NCBI GenBank assembly: GCA_012718915.1
Contig: JAAYBI010000112.1
Coordinates: 1 to 64,000 of the forward strand
Origin: Clostridiaceae bacterium
GTDB taxonomy: Bacteria; Bacillota; Clostridia; Saccharofermentanales; Saccharofermentanaceae
Direction of reading: 5' to 3'
Length of the DNA: 64,000 bases
Below the pieces are notes generated by a model. It saw only the letters and a list, made by a program, of their open reading frames with translations. It made no database searches and was not told the DNA's origin. Below, in pieces: positions 48,928-56,281 of this stretch. Every line of letters starts with the position of its first letter. Within the stretch, counting starts at the first letter, position 1. A program made the translations under genes and the position numbers.

Positions 48928-51900
48928 TTACATCCCGGGTTCTTCACGATTCATTCCGGTAATGGGCTCAAAAACAAATGTTGCTTCCTGCGTATTGCTG
49001 CTGTTGGGGTGTTTGGGGCTCTTGCCCGTCCTCTCGATTTCCTTTTGGTAGAAATCCAGAAACAACTCATAACCATCTTCGACGGGAAGAGTTTCTGTGT
49101 GCGAATTATCGTCAATATCTTCAGGCGAATATGGCGTCGCCGTGAAAGAGAAATGGCTCTTGTTTTCTTTCTGAATAAGGACACCATCACCTTTTTCCGA
49201 TGTAACAGCCAAAAATCTGACATCCGACCGAGCGCCGCTTTCCGACGGCCGATCATAAAAATGAACCAATTCCATCGGTGTCGACCGATATAAGCCGACA
49301 GGACATGATTCTTTTCGATCCGGATAAGACTCAATGGGACCTCTTCCATACCATACGATTTGATTTGCCGTATTAGGCGCGCCCACTCGAAAACCGTACC
49401 GAACAGGATCGAACCTCGGTCTAAAAGATAAAGTGATCTCAAGTCGTCCCGTCGGACGCAATCTGTAAAAAATCAATATCGGATCTCTCATGATGGGAGA
49501 ATGATATTCAGATAAGACGGTGAAGTCTTCTCCATCGATTTCGTATCGTAGTTTCTTGAACTCGATTTCTCGCTGAATCGATCGCCAATCGGTTTCTTTT
49601 GAAAAAACAGTCGCCGACAGGACATAAGACTGATCGGAGCGATCCAAGTTTGTCGCTGCTCGATAGAAGCTCGGGAAGAATTGACCGTTTAAGCATTCGA
49701 CATCATGGCAAATCAATGCGCAGAGCGCACCCAGATTTTTATTGAAATGAACAACTGTATCTCCGGCCCTCGCGATAATGAGCGATGGCGTCGCAGATAA
49801 TCGGATATCATTTTGACTAGTCATTTCATCGTAGGAGATGACCGCAGGCTTGTTATTGTATGATTCAACGGGATTATAGTGATCATCAAGAATCTCCTGA
49901 TAAAATCCGATTTCATCACCTTTTTTATATATATCCGTATCCTTAGCCATAGACAATCGCAAGTGCAATACCAGTTCTTTTGAAAGTGCTCTTTCAGCAA
50001 TTTTAGTCAGTTTGGGTTCTGAGGCCAAGTATTCTTTTGAATATAGATCGTTCACTTTGAAGGGAAGCTGAACTTTTCGGTTTTCAAATGCCTTTAGCGG
50101 CGGCATGATTCCCTTACCACCCTTAATTTTGAGGCCTCCAAGCATGAGCTTCCACTCCACTTCGAGTTCTTCTGTCGCGCCAAAAGCCTGTGTGTTATAG
50201 ATTGTCATAAGCGATGCATCTTCGGGTGAACCGAAAACTCGAATCGTCTCACATTGTCGCTTAATCTCCGAATAAATCGGATGCGGTTCCCGAAATGCAC
50301 TGACAATCCCTTGTGCGATCGGCATGTCATTCTTTGAGCTGTCTTCGGAAATATCCACTTGATGGATGACTCTAAACGCTTTCGTGTCTCCGGAATGAAC
50401 ACCGCGCCCCTGTATACCATCAAATAAGCGCTCGTTCGAATGCAATTTCGACATGCGGTACTTGCGATCCAAGCACAGATCTTGCCACGAACCGAATAAT
50501 AAACCTGCTTTTCCGGGCATCGGCGCCAGATCCGATATCCCGGCGTTTTTATTCTCATCATAGATGAACCGCGTCGGATCCATTTGAGTCCATCTGGATT
50601 TATGTTGCTCGACGCTCGAATAATGGTGTGCATATTCCGGCCGCCAAGCAATGATACAGGGGTGTGAACGGTTCGAAAGAATGGTGTCTTTCATGTGAGA
50701 AATAACCGAAGAACAAATGACATACATACCCATCTGATCGCAAAGACTGAAAAAATCCGATCCGAACGGGATGCCTCTGAGAATCACGGTATTGAGGTTC
50801 GCCTTCTTCATCAGAAGAATGTCCGTTTTCATTTGATCGATACTCACACTTAATCCGCTGACGGGATCAAATGCATAATACTCGACCGCTTTGATTTGGA
50901 CCGGAACGTCATTAATCGATAGTGACTGATCCGCAGCCCGGACCGTGCGAAAGCCGATGCGACGCTTCTTAATATCAATCAATCGATCCTGGTCATCCAA
51001 TACTTCAATAATCAAATCGTATAGTACAGGTGTAGCGTGCGTCCAAGGAATAACACCGGCGACGGTTATTTCGTTCTTAAGTGAAACGGACTGATTCGGT
51101 CCGATGACGGCCGGATTGCTATCTTTGACCGAGCATCTCAGTTCAGGCAAATTGTATATGTCGTATTGTTCCTGCGCGCGAACGATTCGAAATCGCTGAC
51201 GAATTGCAGCCGATATCGACATCCGATTAAGAAAAAGCATTTCCGAAAAAATCTTTGCGCCGGAAACATCATCGGCATGTAATTCTGATTCGCCGGGGAT
51301 TTCTGCTTCCGACTTATCGTCCTCAGAAGTGACTTTATTCTTAACTTTCTTCAGTGATCCGCCGAGAAACCAAGAAAAAGTCAGATTCAAATCCGAAAGC
51401 TCTATAAGCGGCTCGCAAATAATCGATGGCATACGATAAATGCCCGAAAAACCAAATGTCCCCGGGTGAAAAGAATGCGGCATATGAGGCATCGAATCTA
51501 ATCGATAAACCAGTATTGTCAATAAATTCCGGCCGGGCGCAATCTTGCCGGACAGTAACAACTTAGAGCTCGCATGAACGGACGACGATTCAGCGATAAA
51601 TCGGCCGTTGACATATACCTCAAACCGACCACAGATGCCCTCGGTCAATAGATAAACCGCCCGCCGCAAATACGCCTCAGTCATATCAATCCAAACCCGA
51701 TATACACCGACATGATCCAGAAGTTCAGACGCTGCAACGCCTGCAATCTTATCCTTAAAAGACACCGAACTCTTTGCCTTTTTATTGGCGGGCAGATAGG
51801 ATAGTTCGTTAGGGTATCCGTAACCCTCTTGCTGCCAAACCGAAGGTACTCGAATACTTCGCCAGCGACTGTCATCATAAGCCGGATCAGCAAAATCTAC

Positions 51901-52062
51901 CGGGAGCATATCCCGCGTCTCGGCGAAAAGAAAACGCCAAAGAGGAACATCTAAGCGCCACGGGGTCGGTGTCAGCCCAAACAGAGGCTGCTGACGATGC
52001 ATAAATATATCGTCAACGCTGACATATGAATAAAATTGATCCGGCATGCTCTTCCAGTTCAC
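48928..52062 (-). CDS. LacZ-like GH2 protein, probably catalytically inactive
   Basis: 1044 residues, starting with GTG (GGAG 7 bases upstream). The beta domains match beta-galactosidase: N-terminal PSVWQQEGYGYPNE, VYVNGRFIAES, GFSGIYR, and a C-terminal small-chain domain with VWYGRGPIESYPDRK and RPSESGARSDVRFL. The central barrel (about 380-600) is degenerate: the acid/base segment, normally W-S-x-G-N-E, reads WRPEYAHH (473-480), and no Glu exists between 504 and 543 where the nucleophile motif should fall. HEHH-type metal and substrate residues are also absent. No signal peptide. It could be a carbohydrate-binding or regulatory pseudo-enzyme, or have a changed active site. Confidence 0.85.
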   Translation of the reverse strand: MNWKSMPDQFYSYVSVDDIFMHRQQPLFGLTPTPWRLDVPLWRFLFAETRDMLPVDFADPAYDDSRWRSIRVPSVWQQEGYGYPNELSYLPANKKAKSSVSFKDKIAGVAASELLDHVGVYRVWIDMTEAYLRRAVYLLTEGICGRFEVYVNGRFIAESSSVHASSKLLLSGKIAPGRNLLTILVYRLDSMPHMPHSFHPGTFGFSGIYRMPSIICEPLIELSDLNLTFSWFLGGSLKKVKNKVTSEDDKSEAEIPGESELHADDVSGAKIFSEMLFLNRMSISAAIRQRFRIVRAQEQYDIYNLPELRCSVKDSNPAVIGPNQSVSLKNEITVAGVIPWTHATPVLYDLIIEVLDDQDRLIDIKKRRIGFRTVRAADQSLSINDVPVQIKAVEYYAFDPVSGLSVSIDQMKTDILLMKKANLNTVILRGIPFGSDFFSLCDQMGMYVICSSVISHMKDTILSNRSHPCIIAWRPEYAHHYSSVEQHKSRWTQMDPTRFIYDENKNAGISDLAPMPGKAGLLFGSWQDLCLDRKYRMSKLHSNERLFDGIQGRGVHSGDTKAFRVIHQVDISEDSSKNDMPIAQGIVSAFREPHPIYSEIKRQCETIRVFGSPEDASLMTIYNTQAFGATEELEVEWKLMLGGLKIKGGKGIMPPLKAFENRKVQLPFKVNDLYSKEYLASEPKLTKIAERALSKELVLHLRLSMAKDTDIYKKGDEIGFYQEILDDHYNPVESYNNKPAVISYDEMTSQNDIRLSATPSLIIARAGDTVVHFNKNLGALCALICHDVECLNGQFFPSFYRAATNLDRSDQSYVLSATVFSKETDWRSIQREIEFKKLRYEIDGEDFTVLSEYHSPIMRDPILIFYRLRPTGRLEITLSFRPRFDPVRYGFRVGAPNTANQIVWYGRGPIESYPDRKESCPVGLYRSTPMELVHFYDRPSESGARSDVRFLAVTSEKGDGVLIQKENKSHFSFTATPYSPEDIDDNSHTETLPVEDGYELFLDFYQKEIERTGKSPKHPNSSNTQEATFVFEPITGMNREEPGM

Positions 52063-52095
52063 GTAATTGCTCCGATAACTACAGAATTCTCATTC

Positions 52096-52104: not shown

Positions 52105-52149
52105 CGCGAACTTTATAAACATATATCACGGACGTTTCATTTTCAAGTT

Positions 52150-52197
52150 AATCAAATAAAAATATAGGAGCGAACGCGTGGGGCACGTTCGCTCCTT
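52150..52197 (-). terminator. Terminator after the FnIII-repeat lipoprotein gene
   Basis: Minus-strand 10-bp perfect stem GGAGCGAACG/CGTTCGCTCC (arms 52186-52195 and 52167-52176) with a 9-base loop, followed by TATATTTTTATTT. It lies about 85 bases after the lipoprotein stop and separates it from the GH2 gene. Confidence 0.85.
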
Positions 52198-52278: not shown

Positions 52279-53622
52279 TTAGGTAGTGGGAATCTGCACA
52301 GGCACTGCGTTTCCGGCAATCTTGTCATCTTGACCGTTATACAGTGCGGTGACGCTGAAGTAGTAAGTAACACCCGGTGAAAGTTTATTAGCATCTATAG
52401 AATAAGAGCTAACGTTCCTATCTGTGATCCATGCTTCATAGCCATCTCCCGGATAAGCCGGATTCGAGTTTTTATCAGACATGACCACTTTATATCCGTC
52501 AAAACGCTCGTCTGAAATCGTGTTCCAAGTGACTAAAACCTTACCGGTTTCGGCGTTATATGAAGCACCAACTGATGGGACCGGGAAATCCGGTGCCGGT
52601 GTAGGGCCTACATGAGTCTCAGGAATGGTTACCGCTACTGCGTTACCGGCAATCTTGTCATCTTGACCTTCATACAGCGCGGTGACGCTGAAGTAGTAAG
52701 TCACATTCGGTGATAGTTTTTCAGGTTTTATAGAATAAGAGCTAACGTTCCTATCTGTGATCCATGCTTCATAGCCATCTCCCGGATAAGCCGGATTCGG
52801 GTTTGTCGAAGACATGACCACTTTATATCCGTCAAGACGCTCGTCCGAAATCGTGTTCCAAGTGACGACGACCGTAGTTCCGTTGTATGAAGCACCAACT
52901 GACGGGACCGGGTAATCCGGTGCCGGTGTAGGCTCGACATAAGTTCCCGGCATTGCTACTTGTACTGCATTTCCGGCAACCTTAACACTATGATCCGCAT
53001 ACAATGCCGTCACGCTGAAATAGTAAGTCACTCCAGCCTGCGTTTTTCCTCCGACATCGCCTCCGTTGTAGCCTTGATTAGGCTTAATCAGATATGAGGT
53101 CTGCGAAGCATTTGTAATAAATGCGGCATATCCGTCTCCACTGTATTTAGGGCTCGAATTGTTCTTGGACATAACGACCTTGTAGCCGTCGAAATCGGAC
53201 GCACTAATCGCATTCCATGACACAAGAACACCTTCGCCGGTTTGTACTGCATTAACGACCGGTGCGACATGTCCCGAAGGATCCACCGGCTGCGTCGGCT
53301 TAACCGTAGTCGGTTTAACCGTAGTCGGCTTAGCCGTGGTCTCCGTTGTCGTCGGTGGGACCGTCGTGGATTCGATTGTCGTTTCCGGAGTCGTTTCCGG
53401 AGTCGTCTCCGGCGTTGTCTCAGTAGTCGGTTTCAGAGTGGTCTCAATCGTCGATTCCGTAATCTTAACCTCTTCTTTAATGGACTCCGCTTCAGAAGCA
53501 TTAATTTGAAGTTGCAACAATTCACCTTTGTCTTTTTGATAATTCTTTTCACAGGCCGATAACAGGAATGAGAAAGAAATCAAAAAGGATAGTGTCAGAA
53601 TCAGTGAGCGTTTGATTTTCAT
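52279..53622 (-). CDS. Secreted lipoprotein with three fibronectin-III-like repeats
   Basis: 447 residues from the ATG at 53622 (GAGG 7 bases upstream). Lipoprotein signal peptide with lipobox LLSAC and Cys24. Then a short charged stalk, a Thr/Pro-rich tract (ETTPETTPETTP and TVKPTTVKPT type, about 60-120), and three FnIII-like domains of about 100-111 residues, each with WNxIS, FDGYKVVMS, GDGYxAxIT and VTYYFSVTALY. Domains two and three share long stretches of identical DNA. No catalytic motif. It is probably a surface adhesin or carbohydrate-associated scaffold; its place between GH2 and GH3 genes supports a carbohydrate role, as inference. Confidence 0.9.
   Translation of the reverse strand: MKIKRSLILTLSFLISFSFLLSACEKNYQKDKGELLQLQINASEAESIKEEVKITESTIETTLKPTTETTPETTPETTPETTIESTTVPPTTTETTAKPTTVKPTTVKPTQPVDPSGHVAPVVNAVQTGEGVLVSWNAISASDFDGYKVVMSKNNSSPKYSGDGYAAFITNASQTSYLIKPNQGYNGGDVGGKTQAGVTYYFSVTALYADHSVKVAGNAVQVAMPGTYVEPTPAPDYPVPSVGASYNGTTVVVTWNTISDERLDGYKVVMSSTNPNPAYPGDGYEAWITDRNVSSYSIKPEKLSPNVTYYFSVTALYEGQDDKIAGNAVAVTIPETHVGPTPAPDFPVPSVGASYNAETGKVLVTWNTISDERFDGYKVVMSDKNSNPAYPGDGYEAWITDRNVSSYSIDANKLSPGVTYYFSVTALYNGQDDKIAGNAVPVQIPTT
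52399..52466 (-). repeat. Copy 1 of an identical 68-base repeat inside the FnIII gene
   Basis: 68 bases identical to 52732-52799, with a 333-base period that equals one 111-residue protein unit. Similarity continues beyond both ends with scattered differences. Confidence 0.9.
52732..52799 (-). repeat. Copy 2 of the identical 68-base repeat
   Basis: Matches 52399-52466 exactly. The pair points to a recent tandem duplication or gene conversion between FnIII units two and three; unit one (about 52970-53270) is clearly more diverged. Confidence 0.9.
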
Positions 53623-53747
53623 AATGTATCCTCTCTTTCTTGTCTCGTCCATCAGTTTCGCGTGACGGGGGTACGCATGATGGGCGCTGACGACGATTCA
53701 TAAATAAAATATTCGAAAACCGTTCGTCGATTCATCGTTACAAGGCT

Positions 53748-53806: not shown

Positions 53807-56281
53807 TCACTCTTTGTTTTTGTTTGCTTTTTGTTGATCCAATTTTCGGTTTCTTTTCTTGTTTTCACTTAGTGCACGAACACTTTCTTTCAGTCCCTTT
53901 ATGGGCTTGCCGTTCATCATGGTGATCAATCCCTCGAAAAACGCCTTGGAAATTTTGTTGTGAGAGAAACTGACAAATGAGCGAAGCGGCATGTCTCGAA
54001 CCATAGCTTCCATCATTCGTATCTGATCTTCTCTGGGATCGAGTTTGTATTGCTTGTTGTGAATTCTGCGAACGAAGAAACTTAAGACGCGTCCCACAAA
54101 GGTATCGGATATGTCCGTCAGTGTCGAATTAATGGTATGGGATCCTTTGACAGGATGGTCCGTCAGATTCAGAGGATGGTCAAACAGCGACTCAAATGCG
54201 GACATATCTATGTCAAGGCCATTCGCGGTTAATGCGTAATAATCAGGAGCTCGGTCCTTATAATCCGGAATCTTTAAATTATTGTCCGATGAAAATACTT
54301 TGATGTCGGAAGACAGTCTGATATCTCGAGAAGATGCACCAATCTGAATCCGGTAAACGCCCTCTTCGACAGACCAACTCTTTGTTAAAACATTATAAAA
54401 CGCAAAATCCTGATACAGAACTTCGAATTCAAATTCCTGAGTCTCTCCCTTAGCGATGAGTTTCTTATCAAAGCCCTTCAGCTCATGAATCGGTCTAAAG
54501 ACACTTGAACCCGGAGCCGATATGTAAAGTTGTACAATCTCTTTGGCGTCGAAAAGACCGACATTTTTGACTTTCACGCTGACATTAAGGTGATCCGAGT
54601 GAGACAAGGTACTCTTAGACAGTGACATAGACTCATAGTCAAACTGCGTGTACGACAAACCATGTCCGAAGGGAAACAAGACATTTGTCCCGGATGTATC
54701 ATAATATCGGTATCCGACATAAACACTCTCTCGATACTCCGAAAACAATCTTTTCCCAAAATAGTTGTAACAGGGCGTATCCGATAATTTGGACGGAAAC
54801 GTCTCCGCCAGCTTACCGCAAGGTACGCTGTGTCCGAACAATAATGAAGGAATTGCTTCTGCACCCTCCTGCCCCGGTAAATATGCCATCAAAACAGCCT
54901 TTACTTTATCAATCCACGGCATCGCGACCGGTGCGCCGGCGTAAATGACGACGACAAGGTTCGGATTAACGGCGGATAATTTATCGATGAGTCGATTATG
55001 ACTTTCCGGAAGCATAATATCCGTTCGGTCAAATGCCTCCGACTCATAAGACTCCGGCAAGCCGACAAAAGCCACAACAACGTCGCTCTTGGTTGCGGCT
55101 GACAAAGCCTCATCCAGAAGTGATGCATCGTCGGATTCTTCTTCAAGATGATAACCGGCAGCGTAAATGCAACTTCCGCCGACCTTTTCAAAACCGTCAA
55201 AAGCGTCCGTGATACGAGTCGGGTTGATTCTTGAACTGCCACTGCCCTGATATCGCGTTTTCATCGCAAATTCACCGATAATTGAAATGCTTTGAGTCTT
55301 ATTCAGCGGCAGAATTTGCTCGTTTTTAAGCAGGACAAATGACTCCATGGCCGCCCTTCGGGCAATATCCCGACTGGATTCATACGGACTGACTTGACCC
55401 TTTGGTATGGCCCTTGCCTTATCCGCCAAACGAGCCAATCGCTCTACGGAAGTATCCAAATCTTGAATTTTGAGTGCTTTTGACTTAACCGCCTGAACAA
55501 TCCGCTCGTCATTTTCGGCAGCCGGCCCCGGCATTTCTAAGTCTAAACCGGCGGAAATTGCCTTGGGGCGGTCATTCATCGCCGCCCAATCGGTCATGAC
55601 CACACCGTCAAAACCCCACTCTTCGCGAAGTATTTCCGTCAGAAGACGCCGGTTTTCACATGAGTAAGTGCCGTTGATCTTGTTATACGAACACATCACC
55701 GTCCAAGGTTTTGCCTTCTTGATCGCCCGCTCGAAACCGGCCAGATAGATCTCCCGAAAAGCGCGCTCATCGATAATTGAATCGTTGATGAAGCGTGCAG
55801 TCTCTTGATTGTTGGCGGCAAAATGCTTAATGGACGTACCCACACCCTTTTCTTGAATGCCTTGGATTAAAGCCGCTGCCAGTTCTCCGGCAACGTAAGG
55901 ATCTTCAGAAATATATTCGAAATTACGACCACAAAGCGGGGATCGCTTAATATTCACCGCCGGTCCCAGAACAACGTCAACACCCTGATCTCTGCTTTCG
56001 AAAGCAATCGCGCGGCCTATCTCTTGCAATAATTCCCGGTCAAAAGAACTGGACGTCGTACAAGCCGGAGGAAAGCAAGTCGCCTTGTGACTGTTGCCCA
56101 GCCCTCGACCCGCATGCTCTCCTTCTTGCTTTCGAAGTCCGTGCGGACCGTCAGCAACCGTGACTTCCGATATTCCCGCATCCTTTATCTCCTTAGTATG
56201 CCAAAAATCCAGGCCGGAACAGAGCGAAGCTTTTTGCTCCAAAGTCAACTTTCGAAAACGTTCCTTACTCGAAATATCCAT
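53807..56281 (-). CDS. GH3 family beta-glucosidase
   Basis: 824 residues without a signal peptide, so probably cytoplasmic. GH3 barrel with VADGPHGLRKQ, GRNFEYISEDPYV, SIKHFAANNQE, and the nucleophile Asp in VVMTDWAAMND; then the alpha/beta sandwich (GSGSSRINPT, VVVFVG-type core) and a C-terminal FnIII-like domain (LFPFGHGLSYTQF, VSVKVKNVG). An extra tail of about 125 residues follows, rich in charged residues and ending with a Lys/Asn run. It probably releases glucose or related sugars from imported oligosaccharides. It lies upstream of the FnIII lipoprotein. Confidence 0.94.
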   Translation of the reverse strand: MDISSKERFRKLTLEQKASLCSGLDFWHTKEIKDAGISEVTVADGPHGLRKQEGEHAGRGLGNSHKATCFPPACTTSSSFDRELLQEIGRAIAFESRDQGVDVVLGPAVNIKRSPLCGRNFEYISEDPYVAGELAAALIQGIQEKGVGTSIKHFAANNQETARFINDSIIDERAFREIYLAGFERAIKKAKPWTVMCSYNKINGTYSCENRRLLTEILREEWGFDGVVMTDWAAMNDRPKAISAGLDLEMPGPAAENDERIVQAVKSKALKIQDLDTSVERLARLADKARAIPKGQVSPYESSRDIARRAAMESFVLLKNEQILPLNKTQSISIIGEFAMKTRYQGSGSSRINPTRITDAFDGFEKVGGSCIYAAGYHLEEESDDASLLDEALSAATKSDVVVAFVGLPESYESEAFDRTDIMLPESHNRLIDKLSAVNPNLVVVIYAGAPVAMPWIDKVKAVLMAYLPGQEGAEAIPSLLFGHSVPCGKLAETFPSKLSDTPCYNYFGKRLFSEYRESVYVGYRYYDTSGTNVLFPFGHGLSYTQFDYESMSLSKSTLSHSDHLNVSVKVKNVGLFDAKEIVQLYISAPGSSVFRPIHELKGFDKKLIAKGETQEFEFEVLYQDFAFYNVLTKSWSVEEGVYRIQIGASSRDIRLSSDIKVFSSDNNLKIPDYKDRAPDYYALTANGLDIDMSAFESLFDHPLNLTDHPVKGSHTINSTLTDISDTFVGRVLSFFVRRIHNKQYKLDPREDQIRMMEAMVRDMPLRSFVSFSHNKISKAFFEGLITMMNGKPIKGLKESVRALSENKKRNRKLDQQKANKNKE

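Follow-up and report, generated by a model that had tools for sequence, protein, structure and literature searches.

What is a LacZ-like protein for, once both of its catalytic glutamates are gone? The question is raised by a gene on the minus strand of the 64,000-nucleotide stretch of a Clostridiaceae bacterium contig analyzed here (the window). A first-pass annotation had described LacZ-like beta domains flanking a barrel stripped of both catalytic residues, and had proposed either a conserved pseudo-glycosidase or an enzyme with a relocated active site. LacZ is molecular biology's reference enzyme, and a dead form kept under constraint across a whole family, with parallel loss in a sister family, offers a test case for the passage from enzyme to binding or regulatory protein. 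Comparative sequence analysis and structure prediction suggest that the gene probably encodes a fixed pseudo-beta-galactosidase, the product of a core gene of its family, whose role would be in binding or regulation, without hydrolysis.

Domains and predicted transcription of the LacZ-like frame

The open frame of 1044 codons reported earlier was recovered in full, from 48928 to 52062 on the minus strand, with a GTG start, no internal stops, the stop codon included in these coordinates, and intact orthologs. Seven nucleotides before the GTG lies a Shine-Dalgarno-like GGAG (52070-52073, minus strand), by its sequence a plausible ribosome-binding site. Farther upstream on the same strand are a sigma-70-like promoter, TTGAAA-17-TATGTT (52118-52146), whose 9 of 12 matching positions are reached at least as often in shuffled sequences, and an intrinsic-terminator-like hairpin of 13 pairs with a T-rich tail (52166-52196), which stands between this gene and upstream genes for a lipoprotein and a family 3 glycoside hydrolase (GH3). 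With a hairpin resembling a terminator and a site resembling a promoter ahead of it, the gene is probably transcribed as a unit of its own. No signal peptide is apparent, and the protein is therefore probably cytosolic.

The LacZ-like flanking domains described in the first-pass annotation, small chain included, proved to belong to a complete five-domain LacZ architecture according to Pfam, the predicted model, and fold search. All five domains are encoded on the minus strand. Domain 1 (residues 1-225, 51388-52062) is a sugar-binding jelly-roll, with Pfam GH2_N matching residues 42-215, and domain 2 (residues 226-372, 50947-51387) is Ig-like, with PF00703 matching residues 307-372; the model bears out both. 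Domain 3, the shortened barrel (residues 373-606, 50245-50946), was delimited by alignment and models. Domain 4 (LacZ_4, residues 607-750, 49813-50244) and domain 5 (the beta-galactosidase small chain, residues 751-1012, 49027-49812) were assigned by Pfam and the model. Bgal_small_N (E = 1e-39), LacZ_4, GH2_N, and GH2 all score above their curated cut-offs, while for Glyco_hydro_2_C only model positions 3-76 of 302, the first quarter, match the window protein. A phmmer search against PDB gave a similar picture, with matches to LacZ in its N-terminal domain, its small chain, and the beginning of its barrel. Since the Pfam GH2 cut-offs are passed, domain-based surveys may assign a beta-galactosidase to many Clostridia of rumen and gut that lack one.

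AlphaFold2, run on 73 aligned sequences, gave a model with pLDDT 79 and pTM 0.79. Compared with solved LacZ structures, it matches along the whole chain (VIA Z 30-31, rmsd 3.1-3.6 A over 850-876 residues), and Foldseek also returned a whole-chain match to LacZ, at E = 3e-64. The protein shares with E. coli LacZ, Thermotoga maritima 6sd0, and Bacteroides thetaiotaomicron 3bga the same five domains, the whole-chain fold, the Bgal_small_N domain, and many structural invariants, of which 58 are retained.

Loss of the catalytic residues and of the nucleophile strand

We used MAFFT to align the window protein and 33 orthologs with E. coli LacZ (MG1655) and with six true LacZs from the window's own order. 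The six true LacZs keep E416, H418, E461, M502, Y503, E537, H540, and W568 without exception. In the window protein and its 33 orthologs, these residues, together with D201 and H357, are substituted or deleted, apart from L018, which alone among the orthologs has Glu at column 416. The window protein also lacks H391; His occupies that column in most orthologs of genus g4 and in L008 and L048. In a larger alignment of 79 sequences, where the window protein is joined by 78 full-length GTDB orthologs, the acid/base column E461 holds Glu in none, and the nucleophile column E537 is empty in all. Of the Mg2+ ligand columns, E416 holds Glu in one sequence and H418 is empty in every one, while the W568 column is Gly throughout. 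Neither alignment, therefore, places Glu at either catalytic position.

Local readings made earlier stand as well. The string WRPEYAHH is found at residues 473-480, and its first five residues (473-477, 50632-50646, minus strand) occupy the position of the LacZ motif W-S-x-G-N-E461, where orthologs have no conserved Glu. Orthologs from beyond the window's genus have not kept E476, the Glu of WRPEY; their equivalents read WSMTGK, WSFAPL, WGFSEF, and others. Residues 504-543 are indeed free of Glu, flanked by E503 and E544, and the missing HEHH and SHYP elements are replaced by YYAF and RGIP.

The nucleophile region is deleted, not merely substituted. In the alignment, E. coli LacZ residues from about 505 to 560, which comprise strand 7 and the nucleophile E537, have no counterpart, and a short joint (residues 512-519, 50506-50529, minus strand) spans the deletion. 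The barrel measures 234 +/- 3 residues in the family versus 296 +/- 10 in true LacZ; about a fifth of the catalytic barrel is lost. After strand 8 comes a conserved segment of roughly 45 residues, specific to the family and mostly absent from true LacZs (residues 529-572, 50347-50478, minus strand), with the consensus DLCLDR...FETIxGRxRF...YKWIHHADL. Compared with active LacZs, then, the protein has lost the catalytic glutamates, the Mg2+ site, and strand 7, and carries this extra segment. Because both catalytic residues were looked for and are absent, it does not belong among the active LacZ enzymes.

Structure prediction agrees with the alignment. The modeled barrel has predicted strands 1-4, a short and weak strand 5, and strand 8, with strand 7 missing, so that by alignment and model alike it is not a complete (beta/alpha)8 barrel. 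Predicted alone (pLDDT 71), its top matches are LacZ barrels, at Z of about 16 over 160-170 residues. The pLDDT of residues 541-580 is a modest 45-63, which leaves the geometry of that segment uncertain. When a barrel profile was searched against PDB, LacZ matches ended near position 87 and those to other GH2 proteins near 140, with none extending beyond among the best 60 matches. That the protein might be a catalytically normal GH2 enzyme, its glutamates overlooked through misalignment, is highly improbable: E476, E503, and E544 do exist in the window protein, but none is conserved in orthologs, which rules out a missed catalytic Glu, position 537 is a gap throughout the alignment, and the model lacks the strand.

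Conservation and proposed reuse of the altered barrel

Orthologs with the same losses occur, by our own count, in 113 of the 115 genomes of the window's family; the two genomes without one are G011, which is 78% complete, and G154. When 58 relatives were searched, full-length orthologs without internal stops turned up across the family, which consists mostly of rumen and gut bacteria and is probably Saccharofermentanaceae in GTDB. Names in the genome records include Saccharofermentans, Mageeibacillus, MAGs from rumen, horse, and ruminants, and Ruminococcaceae strains YAD3003, YRB3002, KHP2, and AB4001. A profile restricted to the barrel was run over 188 genomes of the order, 115 of them from the family. 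Nearly all family matches span the whole barrel at E < 1e-60, and the few that are fragments include several at contig ends. In the order's other families no match is better than 1.9e-22, and that one stops at position 86, where a match to an ordinary LacZ would be expected to stop. Among 391 genomes sampled from the class, whole-barrel matches were confined to the window's family, and among 299 genomes sampled across the phylum, the window's own genome aside, this barrel type was not found at E < 1e-26.

As a base rate, in a sample of 51 LacZ-type ORFs drawn for the most part from the class's other families, 49 have both glutamates, the two exceptions being a contig-edge fragment and L206, which is described below. 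Elsewhere in the window's genome a single further GH2 barrel turned up, at C37, and it retains a WSIGNE motif. One genome, G007, encodes both the pseudo-LacZ (L018) and a true LacZ (L057) with complete catalytic residues. In the phylogenetic tree, L057 is the true LacZ nearest to the dead clade, on a long branch.

Among orthologs, dN/dS computed by the NG86 method was 0.03-0.09 for 16 pairs. For the window protein and its closest congener it was 0.064 overall and 0.054 in the barrel, the latter a rough value since dS is saturated there. Barrel identity is 0.43 within the family versus 0.46 among true LacZs. Of the protein's domains the altered barrel is one of the best conserved; domains 1 and 5 are also well conserved. 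Low dN/dS, identity near that of true LacZ, and near-constant length together indicate a barrel that is constrained, not eroding. A decaying pseudogene or an assembly artifact, the least probable reading of all, can be rejected. One of the 79 GTDB loci holds a broken copy (L110, in two frames), but the other 78 keep a single full-length frame, those of the four strains named above among them, and both the low dN/dS and the presence in nearly all family genomes argue the same way. The earlier statement that this is not a decaying pseudogene therefore holds. Because nearly every species of the family keeps the gene intact, the protein almost certainly does some other job than catalysis by LacZ.

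Where that job might be done is suggested by the placement of residues peculiar to the dead form. The family has 180 columns with at least 95% invariance that can be aligned to E. coli LacZ; in comparison with 14 true LacZs, 40 of these columns hold a residue never found in the true enzymes. The known LacZ active-site positions used for this test include the 794-801 loop. Within three residues in sequence of these positions lie 12 of the 40 lineage-specific invariants and 9 of the 140 others (permutation p = 0.0004), a comparison that is partly conditional in that the two forms must differ near the active site. Residues 805-829 (49576-49650, minus strand), the counterpart of the LacZ 790-816 region with its 794-804 active-site loop, carry invariants found only in the dead form. 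Drift would predict variable residues, so the invariant ones near the old active site speak against it, and their clustering is the chief reason to propose a reused site at the mouth of the old one.

We consider it most likely that the protein is a cytosolic pseudo-glycosidase in which the mouth of the old active site has been put to new use, for binding, for regulation, or as part of a scaffold. A LacZ-type protein would have lost the GH2 double-displacement machinery, nucleophile strand included; its outer beta domains would remain as a LacZ-like scaffold; and the shortened barrel, the conserved new segment, and the domain-5 loop may together form an altered site for a ligand or partner where the active site used to be. 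We infer that the altered region binds something and that binding is its function, whether the specific role be binding as such, regulation, or scaffolding. Of the two proposals made in the first-pass annotation, the conserved pseudo-glycosidase is upheld and the relocated active site now appears less likely.

An enzyme whose active site, whether hydrolytic or otherwise, had arisen anew at another place in the altered barrel would account for a barrel as constrained as that of true LacZ and for its strongly conserved polar residues (Y395, K488, Y501, D511, D528, R533, R553, H567, D570, Q584, R591, and H594). However, the nucleophile strand is deleted, the barrel has no invariant Glu, and D511 is the sole lineage-specific invariant carboxylate among the LacZ-aligned columns; the last two points in particular make such an enzyme rather unlikely. 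We consider about equally doubtful the possibility of a structural scaffold or partner protein that acts through protein-protein contacts, for example with the neighboring GH3, and in which the barrel is mere packing. Domains 1 and 5 are well conserved, as this would predict, and in a second dead lineage (below) the barrel drifts while domain 1 does not, but the barrel of the window's own family is not relaxed.

The genomic context bears on the same possibility. Upstream of the pseudo-LacZ gene in the window, and on the same strand, come the gene for a repeat-containing lipoprotein (52279-53652) and then the GH3 gene (53807-56281). The nearest NCBIfam model to the GH3 is exo-alpha-(1->6)-L-arabinopyranosidase, at 759 bits, below the cut-off of 1300. 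At 22 of 80 loci the gene directly upstream, in the same orientation, encodes a GH3, and in the window the GH3 gene is the second one upstream, which favors a partnership. In the largest genus, however, the neighbors are mostly not GH3 and include HppA, an NAGPA-domain protein, and, by sequence resemblance, YchF and others, and the window gene has terminator-like and promoter-like elements of its own; operon partnership with GH3 is thereby weakened as the main explanation. A cluster of neighbors that resembled a second GH3 turned out to be membrane pyrophosphatase instead. As the neighbors vary, context does not name a pathway. The lipoprotein has three imperfect FN3-like repeats of about 95 residues each after a Thr/Pro-rich stretch, and a homolog occupies the same place in the congener.

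The pseudo-LacZ is a pseudoglycosidase in that it descends from a glycosidase family and has lost its catalytic residues under purifying selection; that it also works like one is what lost catalysis and conservation, read from sequence, would lead us to expect. Reviewed examples of pseudoglycosidases are klotho (GH1-like), YKL-39 (GH18), and CyRPA (GH33) (PMC7828330). Like the pseudo-LacZ, these have a glycosidase fold from which catalysis was lost, and they are kept for binding, but they are animal or protozoan proteins of other GH families (PMC7828330). The pseudo-LacZ, unlike them, is a bacterial, probably cytosolic GH2 LacZ with a partly deleted barrel, near-universal in its family. A literature search found no GH2 or LacZ pseudoglycosidase, which is not proof of absence.

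A second dead LacZ lineage in the order

Another family of the same order yielded 13 dead LacZ proteins, in a lineage that includes L060/L142, L142/L164 from G041, L165-L169, and L170-L173, and also L156, L157, and L163. In the tree they form their own clade beside the true LacZs of their own family and apart from the window's clade. A single origin of both dead lineages, suggested by the shared change of W568 to Gly (GSWQD versus WDWVD), was rejected outside the barrel (AU p = 1e-4); from barrel columns alone, joint monophyly is not rejected (AU p = 0.31).

The second lineage resembles the window's in that active-site residues have been lost on a LacZ body and the barrel is shortened. It differs in its separate origin outside the barrel, in a variable and poorly conserved barrel (identity 0.32, length 234 +/- 24 residues) that drifts while domain 1 stays conserved, and in a higher dN/dS of 0.14-0.20. 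Its gene shares a locus with pnp in seven genomes, in five of which it lies directly downstream of rpsO-pnp, and proC and ftsK are near it in several.

A broader proposal, which we hold only tentatively, is that a LacZ enzyme became a core protein of the whole family, that its rebuilt barrel, now without the nucleophile strand, detects a ligand in the cytosol or performs a chemistry for which GH2 enzymes are not known, and that the LacZ scaffold has turned non-catalytic at least twice in this order. Repeated loss of catalysis, if true, would imply that the LacZ body is useful for something apart from catalysis.

L206:901-3225 (minus strand), from a third and more distant family, encodes a 775-residue LacZ from which most of the barrel has been deleted in frame; full-length LacZs are present in sister species. 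L223 (in G563), 64% identical to L206, aligns over the same span with a frame of 729 residues.
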